Assembly: GCF_004103715.1 (NCBI RefSeq)
Contig: NZ_CP035282.1
Coordinates: 1,788,673-1,852,672, forward strand
Source of the DNA: Acidilutibacter cellobiosedens
GTDB lineage: Bacteria > Bacillota > Clostridia > Tissierellales > Acidilutibacteraceae
Length of the DNA: 64,000 nucleotides
Direction of reading: 5' to 3'
Below the pieces are notes generated by a model that did not search any database, was not told the DNA's origin, and saw nothing but the letters and a program-made list of their open reading frames with translations. Below are positions 41,365 through 54,215 of the stretch, one piece after another; position 1 is the first letter of the stretch, and every line of letters starts with the position of its first letter. Both the position numbers and the translations under genes were made by a program.

Positions 41365-41390
41365 TGTAACTTTTCTACCATTCCTTCGAA
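41365..41390 (+). promoter_or_regulatory. ECF-type promoter heading the ABC/peptidase locus
   Basis: TGTAAC (41365-41370), 16 bases (starting TTTTC), then CGAA (41387-41390). This matches Bacillus ECF promoters such as those of SigX/SigM (TGTAAC or TGAAAC, N16-17, CGnn). A sigma gene of this class lies in the operon at 45,209, so positive autoregulation is likely. Confidence 0.68.
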
Positions 41391-41410
41391 TATATAGTGG
41401 AGGGATGATA

Positions 41411-42301
41411 ATGAATATAAAATTGGAAAACATCAGTAAAAGATATAAAAGCATAAAAGCACTGGAGAACATTAATTTAAGTATAGATTCTCCGGCTATG
41501 ATAGGATTTGTGGGACCTAACGGGGCGGGAAAAAGTACCCTTATGAAAATATTGGTAGGCCAGCTCCTTCCTACAAATGGCAGTATCACAATAGACGGGA
41601 TTCCTTTAAACAAGAATGAAAGATATCTTAAAGAAAGACTCGGATATCTGCCTCAGGATTTTGGGCTATATGAGGAATTGAAAGTGGATGAGTTTCTGGA
41701 TTATATTGCTTCCCTGAAGGGAATAAAAAAGAACAAATCAGAAGCTGTCGACAGAGCTATAAGCATGACAAGTTTAAAAGAAAAAAGAAAGTACAAGATA
41801 AGAACCCTTTCGGGAGGGCAAAAACAGAGGGTAGGAATTGCCCAAGCCATACTTAACAATCCGGAACTGCTTATAGTGGACGAGCCCACTGTAGGTCTTG
41901 ATCCGGAAGAGAGAATAAGGTTTAGAAATCTCTTTTCCGAAGGTTCAAAAGACAGAATAGTTATATTATCAACTCATATTATTGAAGATGTAGAATCAAT
42001 ATGTAATTCAATTATTGTTTTAAATAAAGGGAAAATATTTTTTGTCGGAGAACCCAATGAACTGATTAAAGAGGCTTTGGAACATGTAGGAACTATAGAA
42101 ATTGAAGGAAATGAGAGAGAAAAAATATTAAAAAGTGAAGTAAAGGGTGAATTCAAGATTACTTCAACGGTTATTACCCCCAAAGGGACTAAATACAGGA
42201 TCGTATCGGAAAAACTGCCCTCATCTTTTGATAAAATAACTCCTTCTTTAGAAGATGCTTATATATATTGCATGTTGAAAGGAGAAACTGAAAATGAATG
42301 A
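41411..42301 (+). CDS. ABC transporter ATP-binding protein (intact)
   Basis: BcrA/CcmA-like ATPase of an ABC-2 exporter. The 296-residue protein has all motifs: Walker A GPNGAGKST, Q-loop YLPQDFGLY, signature [13 protein letters not shown], Walker B LLIVDEPTVGLD and H-loop STHIIED, plus a C-terminal extension of about 90 residues. I prefer the ATG at 41411 after GGAGGG over the ATG two codons upstream. It overlaps the fusion permease by eight bases. The cargo is not known. Confidence 0.92.
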   Translation: MNIKLENISKRYKSIKALENINLSIDSPAMIGFVGPNGAGKSTLMKILVGQLLPTNGSITIDGIPLNKNERYLKERLGYLPQDFGLYEELKVDEFLDYIASLKGIKKNKSEAVDRAISMTSLKEKRKYKIRTLSGGQKQRVGIAQAILNNPELLIVDEPTVGLDPEERIRFRNLFSEGSKDRIVILSTHIIEDVESICNSIIVLNKGKIFFVGEPNELIKEALEHVGTIEIEGNEREKILKSEVKGEFKITSTVITPKGTKYRIVSEKLPSSFDKITPSLEDAYIYCMLKGETENE

Positions 42302-44453
42302 AATTAAATATATGTTCAAATCTAAGATAATAATTATATTGATTTTAATTACATGTATAATATTGGCAATAGGAGTCAATTCATTAAATATGACAAACGA
42401 TTTTAAGCTGTTTTATTTAAAAAGAACATCATCAACCATATCCTTTAATTCCGCAAAATTTGGTGCTGAAATTTGCTCCATGTTATTTGCTTTATTTACC
42501 GCATTGACTTTAGATAAGGATAAAAGAAATAAAAGTAAAAGTATCATAGAGTCGAATTTAAACTATTTAAGTATAGTAAAAATCAGGATTATCTCCATAG
42601 TATTTTATGCTGTTTTGACGACTATAATGGGAATGGCAATGGTTATGATTGTACAGAAGGTTAAATATGGCATACCCATTGATATCTATTACTATTTATT
42701 TAGCTACGGGCTCATATTTTTCTTAACTATTTTGTTTTCCGTTTTAATAATATCGGGATTATATTTGTTAACAGAAAGTTTGGACATGAGCATTATAACT
42801 TTCGGATTGCTTTTTATCAAAAGTTTGACATCAAACAATTATTTATTGAACTGGATAGGAACCAATATGGATGTGGTTTCGGATTTTACGGGCATTGGCC
42901 CTGTAAGCAAGACAATTATTTATAATAGACTATTATGGTTTTTTATTTCCATGTCCGTATTTTTTATAGGGTTACTGTTCAGAAGAAGATATGAAAATAA
43001 AATATGGAAATCATTTCTGATAAATATAAAAAACAAGGGACTACTGGTTTTAACCATATTTAGTTTATTGGGAAGCAGCTTTGCCTATGCTAAAGAGCCC
43101 TATACTTCAGAGCCGGCAAATAACATTGAGGTACATTCCGATGAAAATATATATTTAAAAGGCATTTATCCCGAAGTAGACTTCAATACCAAAGGAGGAG
43201 AGATGAATGCTCACGTTTTATATGACCTCATAAATAAAGGTTCTGAGACAATAAAATTTTATATAAATGAGGGACTTAAAATAAATTCTCTAAGAGTTAA
43301 CGGAGAGAAAACGGAGTACAAAAAAGTTAAGAATGAGAACATCATCGAAATACCCATACCTTCTGAGGAAAAAATAAAAATAGAATTTTTCTATGAAGGG
43401 AAAGTAAAATGTGACAGAGATGGGGTAGGAAGAGCAATGCCGGGTTATATTTCCAAAGACAGCATATATCTTCTTGAAGTTTCGAATTGGATATTCAGAC
43501 CTATAGTCCAAAAGGGCGATTTAATAGATATTTCCGGATATTTATCAGCTTCGAAGGATTTAACCGTAATTACACCCGGAAAACTTGTAAGTGTAGAATC
43601 AAAAGGGGATAAAAATAAATGGATATTTGAATATAGTTCCCATACTGCGGATATAGGAGCATTTGCGGGAAAATATAAAAAGACTGAAATTAATGTAGAA
43701 AATATGACCGTCGAATTTTATTATGCTCCAAAACACGAAGAATACGTGAAAAACATGAAGATAGAAGAACATATAAAAAATATGATGAAATATTATATTG
43801 AAAACATAGGAGAATATTATTCAAAAAAGTATCCGCTGAAAATTGCCGAAGTTTCCATATATAAAAGAGGAGGCCATTCTTCCGAAAATGTCATAACTTT
43901 TTCAGAAAATAGTGTGAATCGTGAGGAAAGCATGTATTCCGTAGAGAATGAAAAGGAACAAATAAATGATTTCGGAAGAGTTTCCGTTTATGCCGATGAC
44001 ATTCAGCTTATTGCTCACGAAATGGCTCATCAATGGTGGGGCACAGGTGTAAATATTATAGAAAATAGCCCTTGGTCTTCGGAAGGACTTGCAAATTATT
44101 CTTCTTATAAATATATACAAAAAGAGTTCGGAGATATGATTTCATCAAATGTTTTTTTAAGTCCTTGGAAAAACAGAGTGGCTGAGCTTAAGAATTATTA
44201 TTATATAAAAAATAAGGATATGAGAGACAAATTGAATCCCAAATTTATAAAGTCCTTAGAAATGGAAAATAAGCAGACCGAATTGTATTATTTGATGCCT
44301 CTTGAGCTTCTAAAGGGAGAAGAAATTCAGGGAGAAAAGGTCTTTTCTGAAGGAATAAAAAGAGTTTATAAAAAATATTTATTGAAGAATTTGACATATA
44401 ATGAGTTTCTTAAAGAAATGAATCTCACCAAGGAGGCGATTGAGGTTGAATAA
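42294..44453 (+). CDS. ABC-2 permease fused to an M1-type metallopeptidase domain
   Basis: 719 residues. The first about 255 hold six or so membrane segments of the ABC-2 type. A signal-like boundary follows near GSSFAYAKEP. About 450 residues outside the membrane carry HEMAHQWWG (zinc site, 575-583) and a glutamate 18 residues after the second histidine in WSSEGLANY. This matches gluzincin (M1) active sites, with a one-residue-shorter spacing than most aminopeptidases. The combination suggests a transporter that trims its peptide cargo or a substrate outside the cell. The ATG overlaps the ATPase. Confidence 0.85.
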   Translation: MNEIKYMFKSKIIIILILITCIILAIGVNSLNMTNDFKLFYLKRTSSTISFNSAKFGAEICSMLFALFTALTLDKDKRNKSKSIIESNLNYLSIVKIRIISIVFYAVLTTIMGMAMVMIVQKVKYGIPIDIYYYLFSYGLIFFLTILFSVLIISGLYLLTESLDMSIITFGLLFIKSLTSNNYLLNWIGTNMDVVSDFTGIGPVSKTIIYNRLLWFFISMSVFFIGLLFRRRYENKIWKSFLINIKNKGLLVLTIFSLLGSSFAYAKEPYTSEPANNIEVHSDENIYLKGIYPEVDFNTKGGEMNAHVLYDLINKGSETIKFYINEGLKINSLRVNGEKTEYKKVKNENIIEIPIPSEEKIKIEFFYEGKVKCDRDGVGRAMPGYISKDSIYLLEVSNWIFRPIVQKGDLIDISGYLSASKDLTVITPGKLVSVESKGDKNKWIFEYSSHTADIGAFAGKYKKTEINVENMTVEFYYAPKHEEYVKNMKIEEHIKNMMKYYIENIGEYYSKKYPLKIAEVSIYKRGGHSSENVITFSENSVNREESMYSVENEKEQINDFGRVSVYADDIQLIAHEMAHQWWGTGVNIIENSPWSSEGLANYSSYKYIQKEFGDMISSNVFLSPWKNRVAELKNYYYIKNKDMRDKLNPKFIKSLEMENKQTELYYLMPLELLKGEEIQGEKVFSEGIKRVYKKYLLKNLTYNEFLKEMNLTKEAIEVE

Positions 44454-45189
44454 CATCGGATTAATGAAATATGAAATTAAAAGAATAGTCGGGTCTAAAA
44501 AATATCTGTATGTTCTTTTGCTGATTGCAGCCACTACCTATGATTCATTGACAAGATTGGTAATAAACGGATATCTGGGTACAGCACCTTTCTCCCAGTG
44601 GACTTATGCTTTTTTTATAAGCATGATTTCCCCGGTATTAATGGCTTCAATGATATTTATTGTGTCGGATATTTTCAATGAAAAGGAAATAAGAGTAAGA
44701 AGTATAATATATTCATCGCCTATATCCCAAATCCAATACTATATGTTGAAGTCCTCTTCGGTATTTGTTATATTTATTTTGACATCTTTGGTTCCGATTT
44801 TTATGAGCTTTATATATTATAAGGCCATATTCGGATACAGTGAATTTGGAAGCTTTATAAAATTTATAATCGTTTTTTTGCTTCCGACTTTCATATTCCT
44901 TCTGGGCTTAAGTATGATATTGGGAAAGATTAACGGAAAACTGATTTATGTGTTAATTCCTATTACATTTTTGATGGGAATGTTGAATTTTGATAATATA
45001 ATACCTATATGGGCCGATATATTCGGAAACAATTTCCTGAGCACATATTCATATATGATGCTTTTGGGAAGGAAAACTGAAGCCGTGGCCTTTAAATTTC
45101 CAAGTTCATTTATCTTTACAAGACTGGAATTAATTATTTTAGGAATAATATTCTTGGTATATACATTCATAAAAACAGAAAAAAAATAA
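44446..45189 (+). CDS. ABC-2-type permease
   Basis: 247-residue integral membrane protein with six hydrophobic stretches starting near residues 17, 50, 98, 130, 160 and 225. The opening (MKYEIKRIVGSKKYLYVLLLI) resembles ABC-2 permeases. I use TTG 44446, nine bases after AAGGAGG, over TTG 44440. It overlaps the end of the fusion permease. It would partner with the ATPase at 41,411 or with the fusion protein as a heterodimer. Confidence 0.8.
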   Translation: MNNIGLMKYEIKRIVGSKKYLYVLLLIAATTYDSLTRLVINGYLGTAPFSQWTYAFFISMISPVLMASMIFIVSDIFNEKEIRVRSIIYSSPISQIQYYMLKSSSVFVIFILTSLVPIFMSFIYYKAIFGYSEFGSFIKFIIVFLLPTFIFLLGLSMILGKINGKLIYVLIPITFLMGMLNFDNIIPIWADIFGNNFLSTYSYMMLLGRKTEAVAFKFPSSFIFTRLELIILGIIFLVYTFIKTEKK

Positions 45190-45208
45190 TGTTTTGGGAG
45201 GTGAAAAA

Positions 45209-45724
45209 GTGGATGAACAGTTGAAACTATTGAAAAACGGAGATGAACAAGCCTTCGAAGAATTTGTAATCAAATATAGAAAGCAAGCTGTAACCTTTGC
45301 AATGAGCATATTAAAGGACTATTATGCTGCTGAGGATATAGTACAGGACAGTTTCGCCGTATTTTATGTATACCGAGAAAGGCTTAATAATTATAGTACT
45401 GCCAAATCCTACTTATTTTCCATTATACACAACAAAACCGTAGATTATATCAGAAAGAACAATAAAAATTTAAATCTGAAATTTGGTGCTGTATCCACTT
45501 TTTCTCCTGAAGAACAGGTAATAAATAAAGAAAAGGAAGAAAGGTTTACAAGGAGTTTTAACAGTTTAAATTTCAATCAAAAAAAGGTGCTTTATCTATA
45601 TGCTTTTCAGGAATTATCATATAAGGAAATAGCTGAAATATTGGGTATGAGCTTGGCACAAGTTAAAATAACCATTTTTCGTGCAAGAAAAAAACTAAAA
45701 GATTTTTATGGAGAGGTGGATTAA
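45209..45724 (+). CDS. ECF-family sigma factor
   Basis: 171-residue group IV sigma factor. Region 2 (about residues 10-85) includes KYRKQAVTFAMSILKDYYAAEDIVQDSFAVFY. Region 4 (about 110-165) includes SYKEIAEILGMSLAQVKITIFRARKKLKDF. The GTG at 45209 follows GGGAGGTG; a TTG at 45194 overlaps the ribosome site. The next gene begins directly after its stop. An ECF-type promoter heads the same operon at 41,365. Confidence 0.93.
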   Translation: MDEQLKLLKNGDEQAFEEFVIKYRKQAVTFAMSILKDYYAAEDIVQDSFAVFYVYRERLNNYSTAKSYLFSIIHNKTVDYIRKNNKNLNLKFGAVSTFSPEEQVINKEKEERFTRSFNSLNFNQKKVLYLYAFQELSYKEIAEILGMSLAQVKITIFRARKKLKDFYGEVD

Positions 45725-46039
45725 ATGGATAGCCGGGAAAATGATCATAAATATATAAATGAAATATGGAGACGAATTAATATTAAGGAATATGATAAAA
45801 TTCAACTTCAGAAAATTAAGGAAAACAAAAAAACATTAAAAAGAATACGAATTCGTTGGATGACGTCTACATTTGGAATTTCATCTGCCGTGTCATTAAC
45901 TCTATATTTTAAATTCGGAATGGGAATGAAATTGATATTGATGTCAACTCTTATTTTTTTAGTTTCATCTCAACTATACGAATATTTTTCATTTAAGGAG
46001 ATAAAAAGGAGGATATACCGTGAAAATAGAGGTTATTAA
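45725..46039 (+). CDS. Small membrane protein next to the ECF sigma factor
   Basis: 104 residues. A basic cytoplasmic-looking segment (1-45) precedes two hydrophobic stretches (about 49-66 and 69-86) and a basic tail. The ATG directly follows the sigma stop, the usual place for an anti-sigma factor. Length and topology are compatible with that role, but no recognised anti-sigma motif (such as HxxxCxxC) is present. It overlaps the next ATPase by 20 bases. Family unrecognised. Confidence 0.75.
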   Translation: MDSRENDHKYINEIWRRINIKEYDKIQLQKIKENKKTLKRIRIRWMTSTFGISSAVSLTLYFKFGMGMKLILMSTLIFLVSSQLYEYFSFKEIKRRIYRENRGY

Positions 46040-46697
46040 ACTGGTAAAAAATTATGGTGGGATAAAGGCTTTGGATGATATAAGCCTTAGCATTATAGGC
46101 AGCGGTATCTACGGATTGTTGGGTTCTGAGGGTGCAGGGAAAACCACATTTATGAGAATATTATCTACTGTAACAGCCAAAACCTCAGGAGAAATTTATA
46201 TTGACGGAATAAGTATAGAAAATAAAAAGGCTATAAGAAAAATGATAGGATATCTTCCTCGGGAGTTTTCTTTTTATCCTGATTTCACGGTATATGAAAC
46301 ATTAGATTATTTTGCCGTTCTTTCCGGTAAAAAGTTTCTCAGAGGAGAAATATATGACATATTGGAAAGAGTGAACCTTCAGGATTTATATAAAGAAAAA
46401 ATAAAAACTCTTTCCAAAAGCATGAAAAAAAGATTAGGAATAGCAGTAATTACGGTAAAAGACCCTCAGGTAATCATAGCAGATGAACCGACAGCAGGTC
46501 TTGATAAGGAGGAAAAGGTAAGAATCAAAAACATATTTTTTGAAATTGGAAAGGATAAAACCGTTATTTTATCTGCTTCTGTTGCTGAAGATATGGAAGG
46601 ATGTAATACCATAATAGTTTTAAACAGAGGAAATGTAATCTATAACGGTATGGTCTTGGAGGATGCTTGTATGAAGTTTAGAGAGAAAGAGGTATAA
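46020..46697 (+). CDS. ABC transporter ATP-binding protein with degenerate motifs
   Basis: 225 residues. Walker A GSEGAGKT (35-42) and Walker B ADEPTAGLD (D155, E156) are intact. Three other catalytic motifs are changed: the Q-loop Gln is Arg (R81, YLPREF), the signature is LSKSM instead of LSGGQ (131-135), and the H-loop His is Ser (S187). It likely binds ATP but hydrolyses it poorly, either as the impaired partner of the ATPase at 41,411 or as a regulator. GTG 46020 overlaps the preceding gene. Confidence 0.88.
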   Translation: MKIEVIKLVKNYGGIKALDDISLSIIGSGIYGLLGSEGAGKTTFMRILSTVTAKTSGEIYIDGISIENKKAIRKMIGYLPREFSFYPDFTVYETLDYFAVLSGKKFLRGEIYDILERVNLQDLYKEKIKTLSKSMKKRLGIAVITVKDPQVIIADEPTAGLDKEEKVRIKNIFFEIGKDKTVILSASVAEDMEGCNTIIVLNRGNVIYNGMVLEDACMKFREKEV

Positions 46698-46701
46698 AAA
46701 T

Positions 46702-47823
46702 ATGTTTGGGAAAATTTTTTCAAAGGAATTAAAACAACAATTTAGAAGTTTTACTATTGTCATATTAATAGTATCTGCATTTCTATTTTACTATACTCAA
46801 TTTATCGGTGATTTGAAGCAGTGGTGGATAAAACCCATTCCACTCAGGACCGATACTGAAGTAATTTTGGAGAAAAGAGAAAAAGGGTTTGCAATAGATA
46901 ACAAAGATGTTGAGAAAGCCGTATACGAAAGTATGAAAGCCGATTATGAATCAGGATATACTTTAAGGATAAGAGGAATAAGCAGGATATATGAGAAAAT
47001 AAATAATAGTCAGAAACAAGTTTTGAAAGAAGCTATAGATGAAATTGAGAACAAGTCTCTCAGTATTTCTTATAACGAATTTGAAAAAATTATGAAGTCT
47101 GTAGACAATGCCTTGGGAGGAAATACATCCTATAGTGAAAAATATTACTTATCTATTTTTGCTGTCCAAGGTCCCTATGAATCGGAAATGAAAAGATATA
47201 ATAAAATTCTTAAAGAAGATAGAGTTACCAATGCTTATGCAAGACTTTTTGCGGATTATATGGGTGTGGGTGTAGGTTTTTTCGTGGTTTTTATTACGGC
47301 ATTTACTTTTATTAAGGATAGAAGATATAGTGTAAATGAATTTATATATACAAGTCAAGTTTCTTCTTTTGAATATGTGGGAGGAAAATATTTGGCAGAT
47401 GTACTGATATCTTTCTTTATAGTGTTATTGGCGGCAGGCCATGCTACCTTTATGTTTTACGAATTTTCAAAATTAAACGGAGATCCCATATCCTACGGGG
47501 CATTTTTCAAATATACGGCTTTGTGGATTTTACCTACTATTATGTTTGTGTCATCCTTAAGCTATGTATCTCAGCTTATCTTTGACAATGGTATTATACC
47601 TATAATAATACAGTTTATACTTTGGATATATAGTATAAACATGGACAACAAATTCAATAAATATATAATCAGATTTAACAGGATAGTCCCTTATTCTGAG
47701 TTTAAAACCTTTGAAAACAGTATATTTATAAACCGAATTTTCTTTACACTATTGTCAATACTTTTGTTTTTTATAGCAGTAAAGCTGTGGGATAAAAAAA
47801 GAGTTGACAATTTCAGTAGATGA
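46702..47823 (+). CDS. ABC-2-type permease with large extracytoplasmic loop
   Basis: 373 residues. One hydrophobic segment near residues 17-37 is followed by an about 140-residue hydrophilic stretch and then five or so helices (about 185-370). It opens MFGKIFSKELKQQFRSF, like ABC-2 permeases. It is four bases downstream of the degenerate ATPase, so the two are probably a pair. The hydrophilic stretch probably lies outside the membrane. Substrate unknown. Confidence 0.8.
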   Translation: MFGKIFSKELKQQFRSFTIVILIVSAFLFYYTQFIGDLKQWWIKPIPLRTDTEVILEKREKGFAIDNKDVEKAVYESMKADYESGYTLRIRGISRIYEKINNSQKQVLKEAIDEIENKSLSISYNEFEKIMKSVDNALGGNTSYSEKYYLSIFAVQGPYESEMKRYNKILKEDRVTNAYARLFADYMGVGVGFFVVFITAFTFIKDRRYSVNEFIYTSQVSSFEYVGGKYLADVLISFFIVLLAAGHATFMFYEFSKLNGDPISYGAFFKYTALWILPTIMFVSSLSYVSQLIFDNGIIPIIIQFILWIYSINMDNKFNKYIIRFNRIVPYSEFKTFENSIFINRIFFTLLSILLFFIAVKLWDKKRVDNFSR

Positions 47824-47872
47824 TTATAGAATAGTATTAAATAATAGAATGAATATGTAGGAGGTTCATTAT

Positions 47873-48250
47873 ATGAGACTCAGCAATTCCGAGCTAAATG
47901 TTATGGAAGTAATCTGGAATGAAAAGTATATAAACGAAAGAAATGAAATACAGGCCCTGGAAGTAGCAAAGGTATTGGAAAAAGAATTAGGGTGGAAAAG
48001 AAATACTACTTATACTGTTTTAAAGAAGCTGATCGATAAAGGGGCTATAGAAAGGTATTATCCAAACTATACCATTAAACCATTGGTATCTAAAGAAGAA
48101 ATTGCAATAACTGAAACAGAGAGATTAATTGACGGCATATTTAAAGGTTCTGCAATAAATTATCTATCAACATTTTTGAGCACAAAAAAATTATCTTCGA
48201 AGGATATAGAAGAGATTAAAAAGATGTTTGACAAATTGGATAAAGCTTAA
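47873..48250 (+). CDS. blaI: BlaI/MecI family transcriptional repressor
   Basis: Winged-helix repressor cleaved when its partner M56 peptidase senses a signal. The 125-residue protein has the family opening LSNSELNVMEVIWNE and the recognition helix region GWKRNTTYTVLKKLIDKGAIER (about 42-63). C-terminal helices for dimerisation follow. The ATG at 47873 follows AGGAGG. The M56 gene starts 20 bases later. In known systems the pair controls beta-lactamase or stress genes; here the likely targets are the neighbouring peptidase genes. I saw no clear TACA...TGTA operator. Confidence 0.88.
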   Translation: MRLSNSELNVMEVIWNEKYINERNEIQALEVAKVLEKELGWKRNTTYTVLKKLIDKGAIERYYPNYTIKPLVSKEEIAITETERLIDGIFKGSAINYLSTFLSTKKLSSKDIEEIKKMFDKLDKA

Positions 48251-48270
48251 AACGGTTTGGAAGTGAAATT

Positions 48271-49560
48271 ATGTATATTATCGAAAGAGGTCTTATAGCG
48301 GGGATATTCATTGCTGTTATTGTATTATTAAGAAAATTCTTAATTTATAGAGCGCCTAAATATACTGTTATGGTTCTATGGGTAATCATTATTCTCCGAT
48401 TGATAACGCCGTTTTATATTCAACCGGACTTTAAAATTCCAGAGAAGGATTTTTTAAAAAACAGTACTGGGTCCATTTTGCCCAGATTGAATTTATACAT
48501 ATATAATTTCGAAGATAATTTCAACTTTAGGTTTCCGAGATTATATCAATATATAACCATATTGATTATAGGCATTTATGTAATTCTTCATATACATTGG
48601 CAAATAAAAAGATTAAGGCGATCAACGAAAGTTGACTACAGTGAAGAAATTAAATATTGGATGGGAAGCGATCTTTCAAAAAGGAAGATAGTGATACTAA
48701 AAAATGATGATATTAGGACTCCAATTACTTATGGGGTTTTCAAACCAAAAATAATATTTCCGGAAAACGTTTTAAATAATGACAATATAAACTTAAAATA
48801 CATTTTGGAACATGAGTTTATACATATAAAGAGATTTGATCAAATTTGGAAAATAGTTATAAATATAATAATATGCATATACTGGTTTAACCCTCTGATT
48901 TGGGTTATGTATAAGTATATCAACAGAGACTTGGAAATTACATGTGATAAGGAAATTTTGGACAAGTTGGGATATAAAATAAAAAAAGAATATATTGAAA
49001 CGATATTATTTCTATCCCAAAAAGAGAATGATTTTAAAGATTTTGCATCGGGTTTTGGTATTCATCCGACGAGGGAAAGAGTAAAGGCTATCGTGGAATA
49101 TAAAAAGTCAAGAGTTTTATCACGGATCATAAGTGTAATAACGGTATTATTCTTCATGCTTTCTTTTGTTAAATCAGAAGGATACGGAAAAATTCCGAAA
49201 ACCATAGAAAACTATACCGAAAAGGATGATGGTGATTTAATACAGCATAGTATGTCTGAACACGATATTTTGGATTCCTATGACAATGAAAGCTATTCCT
49301 TTAAAATGAATTCCCTCACGACCGGAGACTATAATCAATTCAGAACCGAGATACACAGCACCTCATCGCCAGGAGATAAGAAGGAGTACAAGCTCGTTAT
49401 TACAGAAGGAGGAGAGGAAATATACAGCAAAATATATCGGAACGACATCAATATAACTACCATAAACGCAAAGCATGGAAAGAAATATAAAATTACGATA
49501 TTAAATATGGCAGATACGATATTCACTTATGATATAGAGATAACAAGGAAAAGAAAATAA
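48271..49560 (+). CDS. M56 (BlaR1/MecR1-like) membrane metallopeptidase sensor
   Basis: 429 residues. It has four membrane helices (about 5-25, 31-50, 90-108, 195-212) and a zinc motif HEFIH at residues 181-185 with the DREITC-like RDLEITCDKEIL. A further helix is near 290. The extracytoplasmic C-terminal region (about 300-429) is not the penicillin-binding sensor of BlaR1, so the ligand differs from beta-lactams. It pairs with blaI upstream. Confidence 0.88.
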   Translation: MYIIERGLIAGIFIAVIVLLRKFLIYRAPKYTVMVLWVIIILRLITPFYIQPDFKIPEKDFLKNSTGSILPRLNLYIYNFEDNFNFRFPRLYQYITILIIGIYVILHIHWQIKRLRRSTKVDYSEEIKYWMGSDLSKRKIVILKNDDIRTPITYGVFKPKIIFPENVLNNDNINLKYILEHEFIHIKRFDQIWKIVINIIICIYWFNPLIWVMYKYINRDLEITCDKEILDKLGYKIKKEYIETILFLSQKENDFKDFASGFGIHPTRERVKAIVEYKKSRVLSRIISVITVLFFMLSFVKSEGYGKIPKTIENYTEKDDGDLIQHSMSEHDILDSYDNESYSFKMNSLTTGDYNQFRTEIHSTSSPGDKKEYKLVITEGGEEIYSKIYRNDINITTINAKHGKKYKITILNMADTIFTYDIEITRKRK

Positions 49561-49576
49561 AAAGAGCTTTTTATTT
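49555..49576 (+). terminator. AT-rich palindrome at the end of the M56 gene
   Basis: AAATAAAAAG and CTTTTTATTT flank AG and overlap the stop codon. Weak as a terminator, but it marks the end of the blaI-M56 operon. Confidence 0.4.
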
Positions 49577-49591
49577 AATGCCATATGCTGA
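49577..49591 (+). repeat. Left 15-base inverted repeat around the small secreted gene
   Basis: AATGCCATATGCTGA. Its exact reverse complement is at 50023-50037, enclosing a 461-base unit that contains only the small secreted protein gene. Confidence 0.8.
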
Positions 49592-49653
49592 GTACATCAA
49601 AGGGTAATAGAGACTTAAGATAACAATAGAAAGAATAATAAAAGGGGAGTAAT

Positions 49654-49986
49654 ATGATGAAAAAATATATATCTGTTTTTTTAGTTGTGTTGTTAATGTT
49701 TGCAATATTTGTTCCAGTATTTGCAGACACAGATGATAGTCAAATAGAAGGTCAAGAAGAAATCATGTCACCAATATGTCCTGAATGTGGAAGAGGGAGT
49801 TTTCTAAAATATGATACAGTTGAAAGAGGTCAAGAAACAGAAACTGAAGATTGCTATTATGAAGGTTGTATAGTGACCAAAACATATCAACTATATGAAG
49901 ATTATTACAGATGTACGTATTGTGGACATACTGATAGTGCTGAGCGAAGAACACTGATTTCTACAAGGCATTCAATAAATCATTAA
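49654..49986 (+). CDS. Small secreted Cys-rich (zinc-ribbon-like) protein
   Basis: 110 residues with a signal peptide (MMKKYISVFLVVLLMFAIFVPVFA, cleavage likely after the FA near residue 24). The mature part has CPEC (42-45), CYYEGC (67-72) and CTYC (89-92), and ends RHSINH. The four CxxC cysteines fit a zinc ribbon. Residues about 63-110 are homologous to the C-terminal tail of the M28 protein at 52,015, which has lost the second CxxC. The ATG at 49654 follows GGGGAG. A second ATG is the next codon. Function unknown; possible peptide signal, metal protein or peptidase substrate. Confidence 0.8.
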   Translation: MMKKYISVFLVVLLMFAIFVPVFADTDDSQIEGQEEIMSPICPECGRGSFLKYDTVERGQETETEDCYYEGCIVTKTYQLYEDYYRCTYCGHTDSAERRTLISTRHSINH

Positions 49987-50022
49987 TAAATTTAACCTTA
50001 TCATATTTAATTAATTAAAATA

Positions 50023-50037
50023 TCAGCATATGGCATT
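50023..50037 (+). repeat. Right 15-base inverted repeat around the small secreted gene
   Basis: TCAGCATATGGCATT, exact reverse complement of 49577-49591. It is followed by TTTTTTTAT and the leader of the first M28 gene. Confidence 0.8.
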
Positions 50038-50074
50038 TTTTTATATTATACCTAAAGATAAAGGAGGAGAAAAA

Positions 50075-52018
50075 ATGAATAGAAAAAATATCAAAAAAGT
50101 CATATTTTTGTTAATCATACTTCTTTTACTGACAGGCTGTGCTAAAGAAACATTAAAGCCTGATTTTTCAACGGTAAAAAGTACTTTATATGCATTGGAA
50201 GACATCGAATACAGGGGAATTAATACAAAGGGAAACTATGAATTTACGGATAATCTAAAAAAATATTTAAAAAACCTGGAAAGCGATAATCTGAAGATGT
50301 ATACTCAGGAATTTACGGTGAAAATGGGGGAGAATCCAAAACTCATCATATCCGACGAGGACAGCGGTATTTCTTTTGATATGGATAATGCCAAATTTAC
50401 CTCCTTAAATACAGAAAAGATGAAAATACATAATGCTGTGGTTACTGATGATTTAAATGAGATTAAAAATAACAAGGAAGAAGACTATATATATTTAATA
50501 AGGGATATTAAAAATTTAGGCAAAAGCCAGTATTATGCCAATATCGTTGCAACTATCGCTTTAAGCAAAGCTGAAAATGATGATATCTTTCCTATGGTAG
50601 AAGACGGGATTCCCGGACTTCTTGTAGATGAACAAACTTTAAAAAAAGCAGAAAAATTCAACAATAAGAGTGCAGAAATATCATTAGAAGCGGATATAAA
50701 GGATGTCAAATTGGAAAATGTCTATATGATATATGGGAAAAATGAAAATAAGGATGCCTTGGTATTGAGTGCTCATTTTGATTCAATAGGGAAGAGTGAA
50801 GTAAAATATTCTAAGGGGATACTCGACAACGGAAGCGGAGTAGCCGTGGTATTGGACAGCCTCCGCAGGACAATCAATGAAAAGCTGAATACGGATAAGG
50901 ATATAGTCTTTGCATTTTTTAATGCCGAGGAAGGACGGCTTTTGGGAAGTAAAGAATTCAGTACCTTGATGGATCAAAAATATAGTAATGTAATAGATAT
51001 AAATTTCGACTGTCTCGGAGAAAAGGGAACCGATACTATATACTACGGGATGTCCGACAGCATATCCGAAGATTTGGTAAAGAAAAATGTAGAAGAGGTT
51101 TTTTCGGATAAATACCCTGTTGAAAAATATGATTATTATCCGTCGGACCATAGAAATTTTGCAAACTATATTTACATATATAATATGAAATATCCGGACT
51201 CCGTTATTATTCATACATCAAAAGATAATATAGATATTATGGACATAAATAAATTGGAGGATATTTCAAAAAAATGCTTTGATTTTGTCAGACAGATATC
51301 TCAAGTCAAGACGAACGAATTGATGACGAAAAATGTCCAAACATCGGTTCATAAAGAAGTTACATATATGAATTCATTAAATTTTGGAGAATATGTTTTT
51401 TATGAATACAAAGATGAACATACGGATAAGATTGATTTTTACATTCAGGATAAGTATAAAATGACTGTAAACAGCTTATCTGATATAGATGAAAATTCCT
51501 TGAGAAATATGGAGGTTGAGGATGGAAGTTATAGCCTATATATAGATTTTGACTTACCGGAGATACCTTATGATGGAAAAAAGTTAGACAAAGTAGAAAA
51601 TTATTTTGACGAAACTCCGAGCTTTAAAGAGCTATACAATAAGTTTCCTATAAAAAGAGTTTCCATTTTATGTTATAAAAATAATGACCTTGACCAGCAC
51701 CAATACGGTTTTTACTTCCAGAAGTATGATTCCGAGACTAAAAAGGCCATAGGGGACTATTATGACAAGAACTTTGAAAGTATGGATAATTTAGTTAAAA
51801 AGAAAAATGAAGAAAGAAATATATATATAGGGAATGAACAAAACGGAAACAGGTATATAAAAAGTATAAGAACTACTTTTTCAGAAGGAGAATACTACTA
51901 TGTATGTACATTTGATTTGTTTGATGATGAACTGTCCAAGTTATCCGATGAAGAACTGATGAAATTAAATTCAAAATATATAAATGATGTATATAAGATG
52001 GTGAATAAGTTAAAATGA
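50075..52018 (+). CDS. M28 family lipoprotein peptidase (first tandem copy)
   Basis: 647-residue exported zinc peptidase. The signal peptide ends in the lipobox LTGC (about 19-22), so it is anchored to the outer membrane face. The zinc-ligand motifs of M28 are visible: AHFDS (233-237), LDNGSG, NAEEG, NFDCLG and SDHRNF. The last about 260 residues form a further domain I do not recognise. The ATG at 50075 follows AAAGGAGGAG. The N-terminal about 140 residues nearly match the next gene. Its substrate may be a peptide exported by the upstream ABC system. Confidence 0.88.
   Translation: MNRKNIKKVIFLLIILLLLTGCAKETLKPDFSTVKSTLYALEDIEYRGINTKGNYEFTDNLKKYLKNLESDNLKMYTQEFTVKMGENPKLIISDEDSGISFDMDNAKFTSLNTEKMKIHNAVVTDDLNEIKNNKEEDYIYLIRDIKNLGKSQYYANIVATIALSKAENDDIFPMVEDGIPGLLVDEQTLKKAEKFNNKSAEISLEADIKDVKLENVYMIYGKNENKDALVLSAHFDSIGKSEVKYSKGILDNGSGVAVVLDSLRRTINEKLNTDKDIVFAFFNAEEGRLLGSKEFSTLMDQKYSNVIDINFDCLGEKGTDTIYYGMSDSISEDLVKKNVEEVFSDKYPVEKYDYYPSDHRNFANYIYIYNMKYPDSVIIHTSKDNIDIMDINKLEDISKKCFDFVRQISQVKTNELMTKNVQTSVHKEVTYMNSLNFGEYVFYEYKDEHTDKIDFYIQDKYKMTVNSLSDIDENSLRNMEVEDGSYSLYIDFDLPEIPYDGKKLDKVENYFDETPSFKELYNKFPIKRVSILCYKNNDLDQHQYGFYFQKYDSETKKAIGDYYDKNFESMDNLVKKKNEERNIYIGNEQNGNRYIKSIRTTFSEGEYYYVCTFDLFDDELSKLSDEELMKLNSKYINDVYKMVNKLK
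50141..50558 (+). repeat. Near-identical segment, first M28 copy
   Basis: 418 bases with very few differences from 52099-52516 (constant offset of 1,958). Similarity falls sharply outside the segment, suggesting recent duplication or gene conversion. Confidence 0.85.
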
Positions 52019-54135
52019 TTAAAAGAGAAAAAATGGTAAGAAAAAATATAAAAAAAATAATATTATTGTCAGCCGCCCTTCTTTTATTAATGGGGTGTGC
52101 CAAAGAAACATTAAAGCCTGATTTTTCAACGGTAAAAAGTACTTTATATGCGTTAGAAGATATCGAATACAGGGGAATTAATGCAAAGGGAAACTATGAA
52201 TTTACGGATAATCTGAAAAAATATTTGAGAAGCCTGGAAAGCGATAATCTGAAGATGTATACCCAGGAATTTACGGTGAAGATGGGGGAAAATCCGAAAC
52301 TCATCATATCCGACGAGGACAGCGGTATTTCTTTTGATATGGATAATGCCAAATTTACCTCTTTAAATACAGAAAAGATGAAAATACATAATGCTGTGGT
52401 TACTGATGATTTAAATGAGATTAAAAATAACAAGGAAGAAGACTATATATATTTAATAAGTGATATTAAAAATTTAGGCAAAAGCCAGTATTATGCCAAT
52501 ATCGTTGCAACTATCGTTTTAGGTGGGGCTGAAAATGACGGTATACCTCCTTTAGTAAAGGAAGATGCTATGAGACTGCGTGTAGATGAACAAAGTTTTA
52601 AAAAAGCAGAAAAATTCAGCAATAAGAGTGTCGAGATATCATTAGAAGCGGATATAAAGGATGTCAAATTGGAAAATGTTTATATGATATATGGGAAAAA
52701 TGAAAATAAGGATGCCTTGGTATTGAGTGCTCATTTTGATTCAATAGGAAAGAGTGAAGGAAAGTATTCAAAAGGTATACTCGACAACGGAAGCGGAGTA
52801 GCCGTTGTATTGGACAGCCTCCATAGGACAATCGATGAAAAGATAAATACGGATAAGGATATAGTCTTTGCGTTCCTTAATGCTGAAGAAGAAGGACTTT
52901 CGGGAAGCAAAGAATTCAGTACCTTGATGAATTTAAAATACAATAATGTAATAGATATAAATTTCGATTGTATTGGAGAAAAGGGGACTGATACCGTATA
53001 CTACGGAATGTCGAACAGCATATCAGAGGATTTAATAAAGAAGAATATGAATAATATCTTTGGGGATAAGTATTCCCTTAAAGAAGACAATCAGTATCTT
53101 TCAGACCATGTTAATTTTACAAATTATATTTATATATATAATATGGACTATGAGAAAACATTATATCCCAATACATCAAAGGATAATGCAGATGCCGTAG
53201 ATATGGACAAATTGGAGGATATCTCGAATATGTCCTTTGATTTTATCAAGCAAATTGCTCGGACCAAAACAGATAAATTGTTGAATGGAAACGTACAAAC
53301 ATCGGTGAATAAGATGACTACATATATGAATTCTTTGGATTTCGGAGAATATGTTTTTTATGAGCTCAGTAACGAACACCCGGAACAAATTAATTTTTAT
53401 GTTCAGAATCAATACAGGACGACTGTAAGCAGCTTGTCCGATTTGGATGAAAGTTTTTGCGGAAGTATGGAAATTGAGGATGGAACTTATAACTTAAATA
53501 TGGACTTCGATCTTCCCGGAAAGCCTTACAGAGGAGAAACGTTGGATAAAGCAATAAACTATTTCAGAAGAAAACCAACCTTTAAAGAACTGTACGATAA
53601 ATTTCCCATAGGAGGCTTTGGTATTCTATGCTATAAAAATAATGATCCTTCTGACATTCAGTATAGTTTTTATATCAATAAGTATGATTCCGAGACTAAA
53701 AAGGCCATAGGAGATTATTATGAAAAGGATTTTGAGAACATGACCAATTTGGTGAAAAAAAAGGACGGAGAAAGAAATATCTATATAGGGGAGGAACAAA
53801 ACGGAAATGAGAATATAAAGGTTATAAATACCACTTTTTCAAAGGGAGAATACTACTATGTATGTAAACTCAGGCTGTTTGACAGTGAACTGTCTAAATT
53901 GTCTGATGATGAACTGATAAACTTAAATTCAAGATATGTAGACGATGCATGTAGAGTTACAGACAGAACCGTTTTAGTAGATTGGTATACGGAGACCGAA
54001 GATTGTTATTATGTGGGCTGCATAATAAGTAAAGTATATTATAAGTATGAAGATCGCTACAGAAATTCGGATTCCGAAAATGATGTTAATATTCGAGTAG
54101 AATTAGTCAATACCATGCACTCTATAAAGCATTAA
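52015..54135 (+). CDS. M28 family lipoprotein peptidase (second tandem copy) with extra C-terminal tail
   Basis: 706 residues from the ATG overlapping the previous stop (ATGA). The ATG at 52033 aligns better with the start of the first copy. The lipobox is LMGC. Zinc-ligand motifs are AHFDS, LDNGSG, NAEEE, NFDCIG and SDHVNF. Residues about 655-706 extend beyond the first copy and match the small secreted protein at 49,654 (ETEDCYY-GC near 660-669 and HSI-H at the end). The CTYC pair of that protein is replaced by NSDSEN. This looks like a fusion of a peptidase with that domain. Confidence 0.87.
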   Translation: MIKREKMVRKNIKKIILLSAALLLLMGCAKETLKPDFSTVKSTLYALEDIEYRGINAKGNYEFTDNLKKYLRSLESDNLKMYTQEFTVKMGENPKLIISDEDSGISFDMDNAKFTSLNTEKMKIHNAVVTDDLNEIKNNKEEDYIYLISDIKNLGKSQYYANIVATIVLGGAENDGIPPLVKEDAMRLRVDEQSFKKAEKFSNKSVEISLEADIKDVKLENVYMIYGKNENKDALVLSAHFDSIGKSEGKYSKGILDNGSGVAVVLDSLHRTIDEKINTDKDIVFAFLNAEEEGLSGSKEFSTLMNLKYNNVIDINFDCIGEKGTDTVYYGMSNSISEDLIKKNMNNIFGDKYSLKEDNQYLSDHVNFTNYIYIYNMDYEKTLYPNTSKDNADAVDMDKLEDISNMSFDFIKQIARTKTDKLLNGNVQTSVNKMTTYMNSLDFGEYVFYELSNEHPEQINFYVQNQYRTTVSSLSDLDESFCGSMEIEDGTYNLNMDFDLPGKPYRGETLDKAINYFRRKPTFKELYDKFPIGGFGILCYKNNDPSDIQYSFYINKYDSETKKAIGDYYEKDFENMTNLVKKKDGERNIYIGEEQNGNENIKVINTTFSKGEYYYVCKLRLFDSELSKLSDDELINLNSRYVDDACRVTDRTVLVDWYTETEDCYYVGCIISKVYYKYEDRYRNSDSENDVNIRVELVNTMHSIKH
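52099..52516 (+). repeat. Near-identical segment, second M28 copy
   Basis: Partner of 50141-50558. Within it, only a few residues differ (for example T/A and K/R changes), whereas later parts of the two proteins differ at a much larger fraction of positions. Confidence 0.85.
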
Positions 54136-54180
54136 AAAATTCATATTTGATTTTCCCTTAATATAAGTAGAAATAATAAT

Positions 54181-54209
54181 CAGGATACTATCGTGTATAT
54201 AGTATCCTG
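54181..54209. terminator. Bidirectional terminator between M28 and lysine transporter genes
   Basis: CAGGATACTAT (54181-54191) pairs with ATAGTATCCTG (54199-54209). AT-rich tracts lie on both sides and the flanking genes converge here. Confidence 0.8.
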
Positions 54210-54215
54210 ATTTGA

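Follow-up and report, generated by a model that had tools for sequence, protein, structure and literature searches.

Within a window of 64,000 bp from the genome of Acidilutibacter cellobiosedens (3.74 Mb, a single contig; NZ_CP035282.1, positions 1,788,673 to 1,852,672), we studied twelve genes that a first-pass annotation, made from the sequence alone, had combined into one module that would export or sense a peptide, process it outside the cell with M1 and M28 peptidases, and respond to two regulatory inputs, an extracytoplasmic function (ECF) sigma factor and a BlaI/M56 pair. Open reading frame (ORF) calls and Pfam and NCBIfam scores bore out all twelve genes at the coordinates then given, their families and their common location on the + strand. 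The first seven of these genes (A to G; window positions 41405-47823) look like one operon in sequence comparisons, distinct from the BlaI/M56 genes and from a pair formed by a cysteine-rich protein (J) and M28 lipoproteins (K and L). We assign a probability of about 0.45 to the reading that A to G is an ECF-driven operon for an ATP-binding cassette (ABC) exporter of the ABC-2 type with a tethered M1 metallopeptidase, which would protect the cells from peptide antibiotics, while BlaI/M56 and J/M28 are separate neighbours.

Judged by the called starts, adjacent genes from 41405 to 47823 either overlap or are separated by no more than 4 bp, and they run in the order ATPase, permease-M1 fusion, permease, ECF sigma factor, small membrane protein, ATPase and permease. 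Gene A (41405-42301; probable true start, by comparison with relatives, the ATG at 41411) encodes a first ABC ATPase with all of its motifs intact in an alignment of ten sequences (ABC_tran, 6.4e-36). B (42294-44453) specifies a permease fused to an M1 peptidase in one protein of 719 amino acids, and C (44440-45189) a second permease of 249 amino acids that matches ABC2_membrane_3 below the cut-off. These genes are followed by D (45194-45724), the gene for the ECF sigma factor (Sigma70_r2 and r4), whose true start is probably the GTG at 45209, again as judged from its relatives; by E (45725-46039) for the small membrane protein; by F (46020-46697) for a second ABC ATPase (ABC_tran) that is degenerate in the window; and by G (46702-47823) for a third permease, which has a long loop after helix 1 according to hydropathy, scores below the cut-off of ABC2_membrane_3 and is conserved in the cassette.

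Relatives were searched with B in 249 genomes of the order Tissierellales (E <= 1e-20); apart from A. cellobiosedens itself, those sampled come from other genera and families. The fusion is present in 16 of these 249 genomes, that of A. cellobiosedens included, and we read its surroundings at 16 loci in the 15 other genomes (two loci in G239; G and L numbers are our handles for genomes and loci) over flanks of 0.9 to 9.2 kb, except in G191, where one flank measures 14 bp. The full series A-B-C-D-E-F-G recurs in the order of the window in eight other genomes (G027, G209, G038, G025, G244, G241, G239, and G240). In G012, A, B, C, D, and G are accompanied by E, which blastp missed and which we recognized by place, length and alignment; F is absent there. 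In G050, A and C have been lost and B is reduced to its M1 part, which lies slightly apart; D, E and F remain, as does G in shortened form. Five loci carry A-B-C without a D-type ECF gene, namely G187, G101, the second locus of G239 (with a stop within B), G224, and G048, where a different ECF gene follows A-B-C; a zf-HC2 anti-sigma label given by eye at this last locus found no support in Pfam. The contig of G191 ends inside B and has C present after it. C stands after B in 15 of the 16 other loci. Six of the nine complete cassettes, those of the window, G027, and G209 not among them, have an additional gene after G for a protein of 208-220 amino acids that looks like a membrane protein. No match to B was found in a plasmid collection. 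Since the gene order is kept in eight other genomes and an ECF-type promoter stands at the cassette in all 11 genomes with a D-type ECF gene, A-B-C, D, E, F, and G belong together; to this extent the proposed module held.

Genes for M16 peptidases were seen near two of these loci. In G050, the M1 part stands by itself, anchored by a single helix, downstream of a PreP-like M16 peptidase gene that is shortened (L021 9315-13153), and G027 possesses a full M16 gene a few genes upstream of its cassette (L018 14608-17634).

The operon is headed by an ECF-type promoter, TGTAACTTTT-N12-CGAATA, on the + strand at 41365-41392, directly upstream of the ribosome site of A. We searched its consensus, TGTAACTTTT-N12-CGWATA, with at most one mismatch in 15 chosen genomes, of which 11 possess a D-type ECF gene and four (G187, G048, G030, and G016) do not. 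Each of the 14 exact matches precedes an ECF operon: 11 lie before the cassette, exactly one in every genome with a D-type ECF gene, and three before a paralogous ECF gene, while the four genomes devoid of D yielded none. The promoter is kept before D in G050 despite the loss of A. Eight scattered sites with a single mismatch look like chance hits because a control with the motif read backward gave 14 sites at one mismatch or fewer in the same 15 genomes. Among the 11 cassette fronts, no column in the 40 bases preceding the motif is more than 73% identical; these fronts were collected through the motif, so that identity within it is given by construction, and the independent observations are the one exact match at each cassette and the lack of exact matches elsewhere than before ECF operons. 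In the window, the cassette promoter is the sole match at one mismatch or fewer (six sites at up to two mismatches compared with 8.35 expected), and no second copy is present, including before BlaI, J or K. The position of an ECF-type promoter in front of the operon that contains D itself points to autoregulation.

E follows D in all 10 other loci that have D (in G012 by place and alignment). A similar protein (27% identity, E 1.5e-6) is encoded between an ECF gene and an ATPase gene in G422 (L253), outside the order. E has one segment above the hydropathy threshold and no match in either Pfam or NCBIfam; it is a candidate anti-sigma factor of D. The three exact promoter matches outside the cassette (G038, G239, and G241) precede an ECF gene whose product is 37-38% identical to D and which is followed by genes for a further small protein, a protein with DUF4358, an acyltransferase of the MBOAT family and a DHHW/AlgX-like protein (families assigned by Pfam on G038 alone); the operons occupy L198 3248-7627, L199 2717-7066, and L200 7302-2971. 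They share the promoter of the cassette and perhaps represent a cross-regulated envelope modification.

B contains a Peptidase_M1 domain with a score of 38.6 against a Pfam cut-off of 27.7. In a structural model built from 11 sequences (mean pLDDT 76), its first 266 residues form membrane helices, and seven long helices are followed by a strand-rich and then by a helical part. Among solved structures, Foldseek ranks IRAP, ERAP1, ERAP2, and further M1 enzymes best, with alignments of about 480 columns, E 1e-14 and TM-scores of 0.34-0.40 when normalized by query length. The M1 part proper covers residues 270-719 (43101-44450), and its residues H575, E576, H579, E597, and Y665 do not vary in either of two alignments (6 and 11 sequences); B combines the Pfam domain of an M1 metallopeptidase with the HExxH, Glu and Tyr residues. 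Between the second His and this Glu lie 17 residues, compared with 18 in usual M1 enzymes. M1 aminopeptidases hold the free N-terminus of their substrate with the GAMEN motif; at its position B reads GGHSSEN in the window, GGHSSAN in G012 and differently again in G048, and the Glu of -SEN- may serve in place of that of GAMEN. The M1 part is predicted to face the outside, because the modelled number of helices is odd and a positive stretch precedes helix 7, provided that the N-terminus lies inside.

Beyond the order, we considered the best 80 of 278 matches to B. Among the matches listed, the named genomes extend from Clostridium sp. Cult3 and Eisenbergiella to Treponema and Flavobacteriales, and the fusion of M1 peptidase and permease is kept down to about 21% identity. 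In the two loci of Flavobacteriales that were read (L074 and L077), it is a single protein of 1164 and 1210 amino acids, respectively, encoded behind an A-like ATPase gene. A sensor kinase or regulator gene lies upstream on the same strand, at most two genes away, in six of the 12 loci from Firmicutes and spirochaetes (L062, L068, L069, L070, L071, and L075; assigned by Pfam in five and by likeness to L069 in L070), and one is located farther away in L073. Two of the A-B-C loci of the order likewise have a sensor kinase or response regulator gene upstream on the same strand. Our search of the open-licence literature, judged largely by titles and the openings of abstracts, found no description of permease/M1-peptidase fusions; papers that had matched on "peptidase M1..." proved to concern M14 or M16 enzymes. 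The operon studied here offers a testable handle on them through its short conserved ECF promoter, its compactness and its natural variants, in which the permease is lost (G050) or the second ATPase is absent (G012) or decayed (window).

This decay is evident from the motifs of F. The window protein reads GYLPR for GYLPQ, LSKSM for LSGGM or LSAGM, and SASVA for STH, and has thereby lost the Gln of the Q-loop, the LSGG signature and the His of the H-loop. Both the Gln and the His are retained in all nine relatives that have F (G012 is excluded from these counts), with LSGG as the signature in eight and LSAG in G050. The window F is also shorter, with 225 residues against 243-298. Measured against G244, its identity is 61.0% compared with 72.2% for the F protein of G027; the corresponding values are 46.5 and 53.5% for E and 74.7 and 67.1% for D, and those for A, B, C, and G lie 0.2 to 3.2 points apart. 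Judged by these sequence features, F has ceased to be a normal ATPase in the window.

Homologues of G occur in 10 of the 391 genomes of our sample of the class, A. cellobiosedens included, and we read the surroundings of the nine others. An ATPase gene stands before G or its place in seven of them (not in G535, where the contig ends, nor in G607), and seven have a gene for a protein of 204-223 amino acids after G (in G556 and G535 the contig ends before that point). Six have a sensor system, recognized by eye, before G (G515, G443, G509, G387, G556, and G535); in two an ECF gene takes its place, namely in G422, which has the E-like protein, and in G607, whose G is shortened. D-E-F-G looks like a separate module, and A-B-C was probably joined to it; the gene neighbourhoods indicate that the operon unites two ABC modules that occur apart elsewhere.

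In the mechanism that we favour, an outside signal, probably envelope stress, would make the small membrane protein E let go of the ECF factor D, which would then transcribe the operon, its own gene included, starting at the 41365 promoter. Together, A, B, and C would form an ABC-2 exporter of the lantibiotic-protection build whose first permease bears the M1 metallopeptidase on its outer face, and F and G would stem from a second ABC exporter that stands alone elsewhere. Envelope protection would be the most likely function, with a peptide antibiotic moved off the membrane and trimmed there by the M1 part; we infer both the direction of transport and the nature of the substrate.

Several observations weigh against this reading. 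A scores only 150.8 bits with the model of the lantibiotic-protection ATPase (NCBIfam TIGR03740; cut-off 309.75), and B is far larger than CprB. Hydropathy gives just five segments in B, so that the count of seven helices rests on the model. With its GAMEN motif changed and variable, B is not assured of aminopeptidase action. No regulator was recognized at five of the 12 named loci (L064, L065, L066, L067, and L072). Against the separation of BlaI/M56 from the operon stands G515, outside the order, where a BlaI homologue (37% identity) lies about 3.5 kb before the G homologue, with three other genes and an ATPase gene in between. Finally, the M1 part of G050 has its catalytic residues intact and neither permease nor ATPase A beside it; the peptidase may act alone, as this genome hints.

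Since the peptidase persists in G050 although the pump is gone, we hold the probability of the exporter reading at about 0.45 and regard as somewhat unlikely, rather than remote, an explanation in which the M1 part is a housekeeping or nutrient surface peptidase, the ABC part works, under the control of envelope stress, in the homeostasis of membrane or lipids, and peptides are not transported. The retention of the catalytic residues in G050 after the loss of the permease part favours it, as do the paralogous ECF factor that drives MBOAT and DHHW genes from the same promoter and the fact that A scores nearest to GldA-type ATPases, under their cut-off. It has to contend with the persistence of the M1-permease fusion over many loci and down to low identity, which suggests joint work of the two parts. 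Unlikely, too, and to a greater degree, is an extended form of the exporter reading in which A-B-C represents a new type of peptide-antibiotic protection, with a single membrane complex that would extract a peptide and cut it by a peptidase on the outer face of the pump, a dedicated autoregulated ECF factor with a conserved promoter of its own, and, joined to it in this lineage, a second exporter whose ATPase would have become a non-hydrolysing partner. It is more doubtful still that A-B-C, or the operon in full, serves to mature and export a peptide made by the cell itself (a signal or a bacteriocin, for example), with the M1 part trimming it outside. The joining of a peptidase to a transporter would fit such a function, and ECF autoregulation would suit a peptide circuit, but the nine complete cassettes contain no recurrent precursor-like gene (ORFs below 60 amino acids were not searched in the relatives), and the sole extra conserved gene, that of six cassettes, encodes the larger protein with the look of a membrane protein mentioned above. 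An anti-phage role was considered and dropped: PADLOC, run on nine proteins (not F, BlaI, and L), matched A alone, with generic ATPase models.

The exporter operon is separated by 49 bp from the next unit, which consists of the gene for a BlaI-type repressor (Penicillinase_R; 47873-48250) and a Peptidase_M56 gene (48271-49560), both on the + strand. A promoter-like site at 47804-47832 has 11 of 12 matches; such sites number 78 in the region compared with 71.9 by chance and are not in excess. The M56 protein is above the Pfam cut-off for M56 alone and lacks a penicillin-sensor domain; it reaches 94.2 bits with the BlaR1 model (cut-off 400). A TACA-N0-3-TGTA operator was not found in the 200 bp upstream of BlaI. 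Lacking both the sensor domain and the classic operator, BlaI/M56 was rejected as a beta-lactam sensor. M56 occurs in 69 of the 249 genomes of the order, A. cellobiosedens included. At G515 (L254 5245-10986), a BlaI homologue is followed by a gene that resembles one for a lipoprotein, by a two-component system recognized by eye, and by an ATPase-G-follower set.

The third unit begins 93 bp after the M56 gene with J (49654-49986, + strand), which codes for a secreted protein with six Cys residues, four of them forming two CxxC pairs, and without a Pfam family above the cut-off. The gene for the first M28 lipoprotein, K (50072-52018; Peptidase_M28, 5e-30), follows on the same strand after 85 bp. 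The zinc ligands of M28 peptidases are His, Asp, Glu, Asp, and His, and the alignment finds them complete in K. The second M28 lipoprotein, L (52033-54135, + strand), is 75% identical to K and has Asn at the last zinc His, which is retained in K and in all five other alignable relatives (G194 stops short), so that L lacks one zinc ligand of an active M28 enzyme. At 53986-54132, L ends in a decayed repeat of the J tail that lacks the CxxC pairs, the trace of a tandem duplication. J was found in 7 and K in 10 of the 249 genomes, the own genome included in each case. J precedes an M28 gene in four of the seven J genomes (A. cellobiosedens, G030, G050, and G038, where it is decayed) and not in G021, G025, and G150; by this criterion J and M28 are a small recurring pair. 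In G025, a J-like secreted protein gene adjoins another ECF gene and one for a second small secreted Cys protein (L165 4022-8705). Downstream of the M28 genes, a 14-pair hairpin at 54178-54212 is probably a two-way terminator towards converging genes of an amino-acid-type ABC transporter.

A perfect 15-bp inverted repeat surrounds J (49577-50037; left arm 49577-49591 on the + strand, right arm 50023-50037), whereas 300 shuffles of both flanks gave at most 12 bp. At one mismatch, the genome contains the two arms and one further site. G038 has a related arm pair around its decayed J (L154 7445-7731), which are its only two matches to AATRCCATATRNTG; this motif has four matches in A. cellobiosedens, six in G030 and one or two in three other genomes, and the backward control gave one in all. 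The repeat finder detected no inverted arms of at least 10 bp around J of G030 and G050. With regard to J as cargo of a mobile element, the genome holds no other arm pair and no clear target duplication by eye. The repeat possibly represents operators, or else it bounds a segment that moves or inverts. Control of J and K by BlaI through the repeat was set aside, although BlaI may still control them: no AATRCCATAT-type site is present within 200 bp before the BlaI gene of the window; none precedes BlaI in 12 of 13 M56 loci either, and the thirteenth has no visible BlaI gene.

Neither unit accompanies the exporter operon at the other loci read, and BlaI/M56 looks like a unit of its own, separate from both the operon and the J/M28 pair. 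No homologue of BlaI, M56, J or M28 was seen in the stretches read at the 16 other B loci; in genomes that also possess the fusion, M28, J or M56 lie at least 170 kb away (G038, G241, and G187) or on other contigs (G025, G239, G240, G048, and G101). Conversely, 14 loci read around J and M28 revealed no BlaI or M56 and no homologue of A to G except a 26%-identical ECF factor in G025. Scattering in relatives with no shared regulation, the pattern that the first-pass annotation had named as its refutation, is thus found for 47873-54135 as far as sequence tells, and not for 41405-47823. Very improbable, then, is the common action of all twelve genes under ECF and BlaI/M56 inputs, which is favoured by the shared strand, the close spacing, the lack of a listed + strand terminator-like site between G and BlaI and the BlaI homologue near G in G515, and which we reject as a whole on the synteny and the promoter evidence, with F and L decayed in addition. 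The twelve genes may nevertheless be co-transcribed in this strain. The locus illustrates how twelve genes on one strand can mimic a module when seven of them are one.

Comparison with known systems places the parts of the operon in different company. The SigY operon of Bacillus subtilis has an ECF gene and genes for a small membrane protein, an ATPase and a permease in a row and is not known to contain an M1 fusion; D-E-F-G resembles it in this gene order. B shares the M1 fold and the HExxH...E...Y residues with IRAP, ERAP1/2, the tricorn factor F3 and LTA4H and differs from them in its spacing (17 instead of 18 residues), its changed GAMEN motif and its fusion to an ABC permease. As in BlaI-BlaR1 and MecI-MecR1, a BlaI-type repressor is followed by an M56 membrane peptidase at 47873-49560, in this case without the penicillin-sensor domain and the TACA-N0-3-TGTA operator of BlaI-BlaR1.

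Among transporters, BceAB has a large outside part on its permease and regulation by envelope stress, both of which are also predicted for A-B-C; BceB is a single permease with ten helices and an outside part between helices 7 and 8 (PMC5786555), whereas the predicted outside part of B is a C-terminal M1 enzyme. Operons of the CprABC type have a two-component system beside the transporter (PMC5786555), as do some relatives of A-B-C, and CprB and CprC are described as proteins of about 27 and 29 kDa with six helices (PMC5786555, PMC9858009). Like CprABC and LanFEG, A-B-C comprises one ATPase gene and two different permease genes in a row, with the Pfam match of C under the cut-off. Such a set, combined with an envelope-type regulator that changes, is how transporters such as CprABC are built (PMC5786555). 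Measured against the same descriptions, it lacks permeases of similar size with six helices, B having seven model helices in its 719 amino acids and C being 249 amino acids long, and the window adds an M1 peptidase on the permease, an ECF regulator and a second ABC pair. Because two features of membership fail, we do not file A-B-C with CprABC/LanFEG; by analogy, we take it to work like a member of that group to which a peptidase has been added.

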